From Dehalococcoidia bacterium (GTDB lineage: Bacteria > Chloroflexota > Dehalococcoidia > UBA2979), in NCBI GenBank assembly GCA_003599735.1, contig QZJI01000008.1, positions 1 to 56,488 on the forward strand: a stretch of 56,488 nt of DNA, read 5' to 3'. The notes below the pieces were generated by a model. That model was not told the origin of the DNA, did no database searches, and saw nothing but the letters and a program-made list of their open reading frames with translations. The position numbers and the translations under genes are program-made. Shown here one piece after another: positions 7,217 to 39,771 of this stretch. Within the stretch, counting starts at the first letter, position 1. Each line of letters begins with the position of its first letter.

Positions 7217-7246
7217 AGGGGCGGGACAACGGTGTCCCGCCCCTCG
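7217..7246 (+). terminator. hairpin terminator after the secreted-protein pair
   Basis: A perfect 12-bp stem (gaggggcgggac / gtcccgcccctc) with loop AACGGT, 38 bases after the stop at 7179. There is no T-tract, as at the other terminator-like hairpins in this window. Confidence 0.7.
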
Positions 7247-27866: not shown

Positions 27867-28993
27867 CGGTCACGCTCCAGGATGACCGCCCCGGTGCCGA
27901 TGCCCGTGTCGCAGAAGGAGAGATGGACATCCTCCACCTGCGAGGTGGATTCGCCGCGTACCTGGCGGACCGACTCGATCAGCTGGTTCATCCCCTGGAG
28001 ATAGGCTTCGCTCAGGTGGCCGCCCGAGGTGTTCACGGGCAGTACGCCGCCGTCCCAGCGCATGCCACCTGCCTCGACGAAGGGGCCGCCCTCGCCGCGT
28101 GCGACGAAGCCATAATCCTCCAGCGCGAAGATCACGTACGGCGCGAAGTGGTCGTAGATCTGGGCCACGTCGATCTCGTCGGGCCCCACCCCCGCCTGTG
28201 CCCACAGTCGGGGTGCGAGGCTGATCGCCGCGGTGTCCACGAACCCGCGTTCGCCGTGGCCGGCCTGCGCGGCGGCGCGAATCAACGCGGGCGGCTTCCG
28301 CAGCCCTCGCGCGCGCTCCGCGCTCACCAGGACGAGCGCGCCGCCGCCGTCCGTTTCCAGGCAGCAGTCGTACAGGTGGAACGGGTCGACGACAAAGCGC
28401 GAGTTCTGGTGGTCGTCGATCGTGAGCGGCGTGTCGTAAAACATCGCGCGCGGGTTGCGGTTGGCGTGCTCGCGCTCGCTCACCGCCACCCAGCCGAACT
28501 GGCGGCTGGTGGTGCCGAATTCGTGCATCCGGCGGCGGGCCACCATCGCCAGCTGGTGCTGAGGCGTGAGCAGACCAAACGGTTCTGTGAACGCCGCCGC
28601 GCCCTGGCCGCGACGGCCCGTGACCTCGCCGCGGCCGTACCGGCGTCCAGAGCGGCCGTTCACGCCGCGGTAGATCACGATGCAGTGCGCAAGCCCGGCG
28701 GCGATGGCGGCGGCCGCATGCGCCACGAGTGCCGCCCCTACGTTTCCTGCCTGGTTCACCTCGCCGAACCAGGCGAGATCGCGCACGCCCAGATTCGAGG
28801 CGATCTCCGCCTCGCCGCTCGTGTCCACGGACCAGCGCATCAGCCCGTCCACGTCCTCGCGCCGCAACCCGGCGTCGTCGAGCGCGTGGAGGATCGCATC
28901 CAAAGCAAGGCGAGTCTCGCTCCGCCCGGAGGCGCGCGAGTACTCGGTTTCGCCGACCCCGGCGATGGCGACGCGGTTTCGGAAGTTCTCCAT
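27863..28993 (-). CDS. thiolase-like protein (SCP2/lipid-transfer-type thiolase fold)
   Basis: A 376-residue thiolase fold of the SCP-x/Ltp type: VAIAGVGETEYSRASGR, LALDAILHALDDAGLRREDV, AALVAHAAAAIAAGLAHC, CCLETDGGGALVLVSAERAR, and the C-terminal NTSGGHLSEAYLQGM with the conserved His. The usual nucleophilic Cys before the AAAAI-type helix is absent (NQAGNVGAAL), so a normal Claisen or thiolytic reaction is unlikely. Ltp2-type members with a DUF35 partner are retro-aldolases that cleave beta-hydroxyacyl-CoA, a good model here. It diverges from the CaiB gene at 29043 (49 bp between starts). Confidence 0.88.
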   Translation of the reverse strand: MENFRNRVAIAGVGETEYSRASGRSETRLALDAILHALDDAGLRREDVDGLMRWSVDTSGEAEIASNLGVRDLAWFGEVNQAGNVGAALVAHAAAAIAAGLAHCIVIYRGVNGRSGRRYGRGEVTGRRGQGAAAFTEPFGLLTPQHQLAMVARRRMHEFGTTSRQFGWVAVSEREHANRNPRAMFYDTPLTIDDHQNSRFVVDPFHLYDCCLETDGGGALVLVSAERARGLRKPPALIRAAAQAGHGERGFVDTAAISLAPRLWAQAGVGPDEIDVAQIYDHFAPYVIFALEDYGFVARGEGGPFVEAGGMRWDGGVLPVNTSGGHLSEAYLQGMNQLIESVRQVRGESTSQVEDVHLSFCDTGIGTGAVILERDR

Positions 28994-37630: not shown

Positions 37631-38530
37631 CTACTTCAGCGCGTCAGCGATCTTCCGTGCATTCGACAGCAACATGCCGTCGATGGTGTCCGCGCCTGAC
37701 CCCGGACTGCCAAGCGAGTCGCCGTAGAGGTCGTCCACCACCTTCATGCCTGTCTCCTCCGCCACGCGTCGCGCGACCTTCGGGTCGACCGAGGACTCCG
37801 CGAAGATGGCGTGCACACCCTCGCGCCGTACCGTTTCCACGAGTGTGGCGATCTCGCCGGCGGATGGCTCGACGCCGGTTGAGGCGCCGGGGATGACCGA
37901 ACCGACGACCGTCAGGCCATAGCGAGCAGCGAAGTACCCGAACGCCTCATGGTCGGTCACCATCTTCCGGTTCGCCATCGGGATCGTGTCGATAATCGCT
38001 TGTACCTCGCGGTCGACGGTATGCAGACGTTCCTGGTAGGCGCGCCCGTTGGCCTCGAAAATGGCGGCGTGCGCGGGGTCGGCGGCGGAGAGTGCCTTCA
38101 CGATGGTGTCGACCATCGCGATGTCGTTGCGGGGATCATGCCAGATATGCGGGTCGCGGGACGCCACGCCATCCTCGAGGCGGAGCGCCAGGCCGTCCGT
38201 CAGCGTGACCACGAGGGCCTTGCTGTCCTTCAGCGCTTTGTCGAGGAACGCGTCCGTACCGAGGCCGTTGCGTAGAATCACCTGAGCCTTTGCGACAGCC
38301 CGTGCGTCGTTCGCCTTCAGTTCGTATTCGTGCGGGTCAACGCCCGCGCGCACCAAGATGTCGAGGCGCACTGTGTCGCCAGCGACGGCCTGGGTGAGCG
38401 CACCGACCGGGGCGATGGTAGCGACGACGCGCAGCCGGGCGTCGTCCTCTTCCGTGGCGTTGCCGCATCCCGCCGCGAAAATGGCGGTCGTCACGGCTAG
38501 CAGGGCGAGGACGCGGGCAGGTCGAGGCAT
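37631..38530 (-). CDS. zinc/manganese ABC transporter substrate-binding lipoprotein (ZnuA-type)
   Basis: A 299-residue cluster A-I binding protein. The lipoprotein signal ends IFAAGCG. The mature part has RVVATIAPVGALTQAVAGDT, VDPHEYELKANDARAVAKAQ (first His ligand), DPHIWHDPRNDIAMV (second), MVTDHEAFGYFAARYGL (third) and IFAESSVDPKVARRVAEETG with a closing VDDLYGDSLG. It captures Zn or Mn for an ABC importer; permease and ATPase genes are not in this window. GAGGAGC precedes the ATG at 38530. A 31-bp palindrome lies 17 bp upstream and is a likely metal-regulator operator. Confidence 0.9.
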   Translation of the reverse strand: MPRPARVLALLAVTTAIFAAGCGNATEEDDARLRVVATIAPVGALTQAVAGDTVRLDILVRAGVDPHEYELKANDARAVAKAQVILRNGLGTDAFLDKALKDSKALVVTLTDGLALRLEDGVASRDPHIWHDPRNDIAMVDTIVKALSAADPAHAAIFEANGRAYQERLHTVDREVQAIIDTIPMANRKMVTDHEAFGYFAARYGLTVVGSVIPGASTGVEPSAGEIATLVETVRREGVHAIFAESSVDPKVARRVAEETGMKVVDDLYGDSLGSPGSGADTIDGMLLSNARKIADALK

Positions 38531-38546: not shown

Positions 38547-38577
38547 TGAGACGACGTATCGATGATACGTAGTCTCA
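38547..38577. promoter_or_regulatory. 31-bp palindromic operator between znuA-like and yibE/F-like genes
   Basis: The arms tgagacgacgtatc and gatacgtagtctca flank a GAT centre and are complementary at 13 of 14 positions. It lies 17 bp from the ZnuA-type start and 55 bp from the divergent YibE/F start. It does not match the textbook Zur, Fur, MntR or IdeR boxes as I know them. Confidence 0.7.
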
Positions 38578-38631
38578 TCTATTCTGGCAACGCCACAGCT
38601 AGGCGCTCGGGTACGCTTCGGATGGCAGGAA

Positions 38632-39771
38632 ATGAGCGCGCCGGTGATTTCCCAAACGCGTCACGCCGTCCTTGCCTATCTGGGGGTTGCCGGGATGCTG
38701 TTCGCATTCACGGTGGCGCTGCCTGCCCTGGGCGTATGGCAGCCGCGTGCGCTCCCCGTGGCGCACGAGACCATCCGTGAGGCGCGCGTTGTCGAGGTCG
38801 TCCCGGGCGAGACCGTCACCACGCCGTCCGGGGTCATTCGCCAGCAACGTGTTGTCGTGGAGGTCGAGGGTCAGCGGGTGCCTGTCGATCGGGCGTTCCA
38901 GGATGGCGGTGGTGACGCCTTTGTCCTGGAGCCCGGCGACACCGTGCTGCTGGCCGCGGTCGAGGGTGAGCAGGGTGTGGTCTATCAGTTGAAAGACCGG
39001 TCGCGGCGGTTCTCCGTCTGGATGCTCACATTCGCCTTCGCCCTGCTGGTGGTGGCGGTCGGTGGTTGGCGTGGGGCGCTGTCGCTGGTCGGTCTGATTT
39101 CGAGTGTCCTAGTGATCGCGCGGTTCGTCGTCCCGGCGATCATGTCGGGGTGGGATCCGTTGCTGGTCTGCATCGCGGGAGGGCTCGTCATCATGACGGC
39201 GACGCTCACGATCGGGCATGGCGTGGAGCGGAAGACGGCGGTCGCCCTGGGCGCGACGGCGGCGTGCCTCGCACTGACGGGATTGCTAGCAGCCTGGTCG
39301 GTAGCGTTCGCGCGCCTCACCGGCATCGCCACCGACGACGCCAGCACGTTGCAGGTGCTGGTGGGCGGTGGCGTGATCGACCCGCGTGGCCTGTTGCTGG
39401 GGGGCATGATCCTCGGTGCGGTCGGTGTCCTTGACGATGTGACGACGACGCAGGCGTCGGCAGTGGCGGAGTTGCATGAGGCGAACCCGTCGCTGTCGCC
39501 GGCGGAGTTGTTCCGGCGCGGGATGAACGTGGGCCGCGACCACATCGCGGCGACGACGAACACGCTGCTGCTGGCATATGCGGGGACGGCGCTGCCGTTG
39601 ATCCTGATCCTGGCGGCACAACAGCAGCCGGCGGGCATCCTCATTTCGTTCGACGCCCTGGCGACCGAGGTCGTACGCACTGTCGTTGGCAGTATCGGGA
39701 TCGTCGCTGCAGTGCCTCTGACGACGGCGATTGCGGCGTATAGCGCGGGCTGGGGGCGTCGTCGGGGCTAG
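38632..39771 (+). CDS. YibE/F family multi-pass membrane protein
   Basis: A 379-residue YibE/F protein. An N-terminal TM helix and an extracytoplasmic beta domain (RVVEVVPGETVTTPSGVIRQ, VPVDRAFQDGGGDAFVLEPG DT) are followed by a helical membrane region: WMLTFAFALLVVAVGGWRGA, the conserved LLLGGMILGAVGVLDDVTTT QA, GRDHIAATTNTLLLAYAGTA. The role is unknown; in several genomes the family neighbours metal or peptide transport genes. Here it diverges from a ZnuA-type gene across a palindrome, so metal-dependent expression is possible. Confidence 0.85.
   Translation: MSAPVISQTRHAVLAYLGVAGMLFAFTVALPALGVWQPRALPVAHETIREARVVEVVPGETVTTPSGVIRQQRVVVEVEGQRVPVDRAFQDGGGDAFVLEPGDTVLLAAVEGEQGVVYQLKDRSRRFSVWMLTFAFALLVVAVGGWRGALSLVGLISSVLVIARFVVPAIMSGWDPLLVCIAGGLVIMTATLTIGHGVERKTAVALGATAACLALTGLLAAWSVAFARLTGIATDDASTLQVLVGGGVIDPRGLLLGGMILGAVGVLDDVTTTQASAVAELHEANPSLSPAELFRRGMNVGRDHIAATTNTLLLAYAGTALPLILILAAQQQPAGILISFDALATEVVRTVVGSIGIVAAVPLTTAIAAYSAGWGRRRG

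Follow-up and report, generated by a model that had tools for sequence, protein, structure and literature searches.

For the actinobacterial repressor Zur a 7-1-7 operator consensus (TGAAAATGATTTTCA) has been reported, and in C. glutamicum one Zur site (TGATAACGGTTATCA) located in the gap between the divergent genes cg0042 and cg0043 was proposed to serve it (PMC2823685). For the E. coli Zur, binding of two dimers to 31-bp znuABC DNA was described (PMC6103462, PMC4219657), and the promoters of S. coelicolor znuA and B. subtilis yciC were each found to possess two Zur boxes, positioned on the -35 and the -10 elements, as summarized in a review which likewise names RNA polymerase occlusion as the usual mechanism of Zur (PMC6103462). 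The locus described here is related to these systems, as a 31-bp palindrome located between znuA and yibE/F is, with a probability of roughly 0.85, a double Zur operator of lineage-specific sequence. Binding, the identity of the metal and repression are inferred, whereby the support is sequence-based: the boxes as such are seen, they are conserved, they are placed on a predicted promoter, and they are linked to zur and znu genes.

The window, i.e., the whole stretch of 56,488 nucleotides that was analysed, is part of a MAG (G000) of 2.0 Mb, 82 contigs and approximately 70% completeness, and the named relatives of its ZnuA with 81% and 73% identity belong to Chloroflexi and Dehalococcoidia MAGs. 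The palindrome, TGAGACGACGTATCGATGATACGTAGTCTCA (38547-38577), resides in a divergent gap of 101 bp, which is flanked by a gene for a znuA-type metal-binding lipoprotein on the minus strand (37631-38530; PF01297, E 7.9e-79, Pfam) and by yibE/F, encoding a membrane protein, on the plus strand (38632-39771; PF07907 YibE_F, E 4.4e-72, Pfam). Thus, the near-perfect palindrome between these two genes that had been reported in the preliminary description is exact in sequence and coordinates, and both gene assignments were confirmed by Pfam. Its arms (38547-38560 and 38564-38577) comprise 14 nt each, are 93% complementary and enclose a loop of 3 nt; the palindrome is separated by 16 bases from the start codon of znuA (38530) and by 54 bases from the yibE/F ATG (38632). 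An alternative znuA start further upstream, at 38578, was considered and rejected, as it is CTG in G003, is not conserved, and homologues align from 38530. The 31-mer occurs once in its own genome. Under a first-order Markov model, 0.31 palindromes of equal quality are expected per window by chance, and the window contains several further inverted repeats, near 7217, 9266, 48758 and 50889, whose arms match at 13-14 positions. As a consequence, symmetry alone is weak evidence, and the palindrome was judged to be real because its boxes are conserved upstream of znuA in relatives.

Comparison with these relatives identified a 15-bp inverted repeat, TGAKACNNNGTMTCA, as the recurring unit, which usually is present in two copies 5' of znuA, some of which deviate from the strict form. 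The znuA orthologues compared share 81-72% protein identity within the genus and 59-54% with other genera of the family. Within the genus, each of the four genomes for which the region 5' of znuA is assembled (the window, G001, G003 and G004) was found to carry boxes there, and boxes also occur, at other spacings, 5' of the examined orthologues in other genera of the family; the box starts are 16 bp apart in the former and 21, 21, 25, 29, 32 and 40 bp elsewhere. In the window, box 1 (TGAGACTACGTATCA; 38563-38577, minus strand) is the primary and the better conserved of the two, its core TGAGACT..GTATCATCGA being invariant in the alignment of the four genus genomes. Box 2 (CGATACGTCGTCTCA; 38547-38561, minus strand) follows 16 bp downstream, scores 18.7 bits with the PWM in the window and is degenerate in G004 (11.2 bits). 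A single 31-bp palindrome was rejected as the unit, given that relatives keep 15-bp boxes at other spacings and that G004 degrades box 2; the 31-bp palindrome is therefore understood as two boxes that chance to be 16 bp apart. One large palindrome is hereby replaced by two tandem sites, which most likely represent two adjacent 15-base docking sites for the zinc-sensing repressor.

The only promoter-like site identified on the minus strand is a putative znuA promoter, TTGCCA-17-TATCAT, which matches at 10 of 12 positions (expected in shuffled sequence: 0.1). It consists of a -35 element TTGCCA (38585-38590, minus strand), of which GTTGC is conserved in the four genus genomes, and a -10 element TATCAT (38562-38567, minus strand) that overlaps box 1. 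Accordingly, box 1 spans most of the spacer and the -10 element of the predicted promoter, and box 2 is located at the expected znuA transcription start. Since box 1 is placed on the predicted core promoter, occlusion of RNA polymerase fits this arrangement. The suggested mechanism assumes that each 15-bp half would bind one dimer of a Fur-family repressor, which is encoded beside znuCB on contig 14. In the presence of metal, most likely zinc, two dimers would occupy the znuA core promoter and RNA polymerase would be blocked, and when zinc becomes scarce the dimers would leave, so that znuA would be made together with znuCB. The znuCB upstream region carries the same box.

The own genome has three Fur-family genes; behind that of contig 14 come a box (TGAGACATTGGCTCA), znuC and znuB, in this order, and a counterpart of this Fur-znuC box was found in five of five genus genomes. 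The contig-14 protein was assigned to PF01475 and has M. tuberculosis Zur as its best PDB match (2o03, E 2.6e-21); with the NCBIfam Zur model NF008646 it gave a weak score (35.6 bits vs a cut-off of 167), and none of the NCBIfam Fur-family models reached its cut-off with this protein. In a phylogenetic tree it groups with the box-linked Fur proteins and apart from the two other Fur paralogues of the genome, and the box-linked regulators that were found are of the Fur family. The strict box pattern occurs in the own genome only at the znuA site. It is present in 139 of 343 genomes of the class, as compared to approximately 39 genomes for the reversed control, the latter figure being counted by eye from the table (Fisher p ~1e-18). 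Among the strict-pattern matches listed in the class, 13 of 29 loci are located at zur or znuABC clusters, in several families; most of the other class matches examined sit inside ORFs and are probably due to chance. In the genome G064, a gene for a membrane protein with an HGITPDEH motif (L155:4755-5711) adjoins zur-znuABC and has a strong box upstream (23.3 bits), which makes its product a candidate for an extra metal transporter of the regulon. Furthermore, on contig C18 a second Fur-family gene is divergent from a second ZnuA gene, with a different palindrome-like site, TGAGAATAGTTGCAACTTCTATCCTCA, in between (~27991-28018), and this pair probably constitutes a separate regulator and box.

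With the actinobacterial Zur box the box described here shares the 15-bp inverted repeat with TGA...TCA ends, the 1-bp centre and the location over znu core promoters, whereas the core is AAAT/ATTT there and KAC..GTM here, two tandem boxes of variable spacing are present here, and the metal-site Cys of the repressor is found in another column. The likeness to the E. coli operator is one of scale and not of arrangement: two dimers are proposed on approximately 31 bp of a znu promoter in both cases, but in E. coli the two salt-bridged dimers bind a single box from adjacent faces of the DNA, whereas here two separate 15-bp boxes have their centres 16 bp apart, with a spacing that varies among relatives. 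The presence of two Zur boxes in one promoter is common to S. coelicolor znuA, B. subtilis yciC and the window; the position differs, however, as here box 1 resides on the spacer plus the -10 element and box 2 on the expected start. The metalloregulator double-dimer site that had been proposed in the preliminary description is well supported. Absence of the motif from other metal genes, named there as a refuting outcome, was not observed: the motif was located at znuCB in the own genome and, throughout the class, at zur-znuABC clusters. The accompanying statement that the sequence is not a Zur box has to be revised, as the site, although its core is altered, follows the 7-1-7 scheme known from Zur boxes of actinobacteria and is tied to the Fur-family protein beside znuCB. 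A concrete and genome-searchable putative Zur box is hereby given for a Chloroflexota class, for which no published one was found in the literature searched.

A role of the palindrome at the RNA level, as a hairpin of the znuA leader that would serve as terminator or in translation control, draws on the fact that the strand folds at -19.3 kcal/mol (z -2.8), but it is highly improbable: box 1 overlaps the -10 element, which places most of one arm upstream of the expected transcript start, the spacing variation of 16-40 bp preserves the boxes and not the hairpin, and the second arm is broken in G004. Moreover, a terminator-like site was searched for and none was found, and the Rfam search yielded no family at threshold. 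Given a double Zur operator, the question of the metal was addressed via the SBP, the ATPase and the repressor, and zinc is strongly favoured over manganese. The alternative, in which a Mur- or MntR-like repressor senses manganese and the ABC system imports this metal while the operator otherwise works in the same way, is unlikely, even though the Deinococcus MntC/MntA manganese models of NCBIfam are second for the SBP and best for the ATPase, and the scores of the manganese SBP/ATPase models nearly equal or exceed those of the zinc models. It is opposed by the structural relatives of the window SBP, PDB 8svc and AztC (5kzj), among which AztC also provides the top NCBIfam model (below cut-off), and by the metal-site positions of the SBP, which align as His-His-His-Asp, a ligand set of the zinc type. 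On the side of the repressor, the metal ligands of M. tuberculosis Zur, which we take to be Asp62, Cys76, His81 and His83, served as reference. The column of the regulatory Cys76 is occupied by G/S/A and not by Cys in the alignment of the class Zur clade, a lack of conservation that fits manganese sensing and, like the weak NCBIfam score, counts against the Zur reading; Cys is kept in this column in the Zur proteins near YibE/F of G630, G606 and G684. The Asp62 column, on the other hand, is Cys in 25 of 25 class Zur-clade members listed (e.g., L120:1459-1890), and the other Fur paralogues of the own genome have no Cys there. The Cys ligand apparently has been relocated within the metal site of the class Zur clade, which would favour zinc; an invariant Cys close to this site speaks against manganese.

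Next to znuA, the double Zur operator may concern yibE/F, and the surroundings of YibE/F genes were surveyed. For 18 of 113 such genes, a znuA, znuB or Fur-family gene was found at a distance of up to approximately 5 kb, sometimes in one operon with it, and in a tree of the 113 proteins the 18 linked tips need 11 parsimony changes (approximately 10 separate origins). The probability of at least 10 linked genes among 70 is ~1e-4 if a chance rate of 3.4% per window is assumed, a figure that was purposely set high and is our own estimate and not a matched control. The arrangements differ: genomes of the own genus have the boxes between yibE/F and a divergently oriented znuA; in G024 the divergent partner of yibE/F is another znuA paralogue, and an 18.8-bit box occupies the gap; in G097 yibE/F is located directly downstream of znuA-znuC-znuB; and in G073 it shares its strand with a box-box-znuA-znuC-znuB array located upstream, in which the boxes are 16 bp apart. 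Members of other families of the phylum in which yibE/F has a Fur-family or znu gene nearby are G630, G672, G552, G606, G676, G684, G431 and G417, whereby the Fur-family neighbour in G552 is placed outside the Zur clade in the tree. Among actinobacterial genomes, which were picked by ZnuA, the link is present in 4 of 26 with YibE/F, and in G724 yibE/F lies directly upstream of znuA-znuC-znuB. A Zur box 5' of yibE/F or its operon was identified in the own genus, G024, G073 and G606 and is absent in most genera, and no yibE/F link was found in most genera of the own family and in the families f95, f124 and f129. The YibE/F-znu/zur link is recurrent, not universal. A literature search on YibE/F (COG5438, PF07907) with zinc or Zur returned nothing relevant, and in the passages considered from one S. 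aureus screen two YibE/F genes are given with lowered fitness in blood, with no zinc link stated there. An AlphaFold model of YibE/F from four sequences reached a mean pLDDT of 55.9.

That YibE/F is tied to zinc homeostasis is somewhat favoured by these observations. The metal link drawn for YibE/F in the preliminary description gains support from the gene neighbourhood, which recurs in other lineages; most YibE/F genes of the family are without a box. The latter genes also lack a znu neighbour, which, together with the fact that a plus-strand promoter for yibE/F overlapping the boxes was looked for in the window and not found, speaks for an operator that serves znuA only, with yibE/F as a chance neighbour devoid of a role in zinc homeostasis. 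This explanation is a serious though less probable one, as chance would account for a few linked genes at most and not for the number and the parsimony changes identified, and as yibE/F directly adjoins znuA-znuC-znuB in both G097 and G724. Returning to the double Zur operator, its location in the divergent gap implies a possible effect on yibE/F as well, and the odds that the two boxes control this gene in this genome are given as slightly less than even. The recurrent znu/zur neighbourhood provides a testable role for YibE/F, a widespread family of uncharacterized membrane proteins, and points to zinc starvation as the condition of interest. It is tentatively suggested that YibE/F could be a zinc-uptake partner, which would be Zur-induced under zinc starvation in several lineages and would have been recruited repeatedly to znu/zur clusters, and that in the class the Zur protein would use a metal-sensing site with a displaced cysteine and recognize a box of distinct sequence. 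Between the boxes and yibE/F, a further conserved element, CGGGTACGCT (38608-38617, plus strand), was identified, whose reverse-strand motif AGCGTA.CCG is invariant in the four genus genomes and which possibly is part of the yibE/F promoter.
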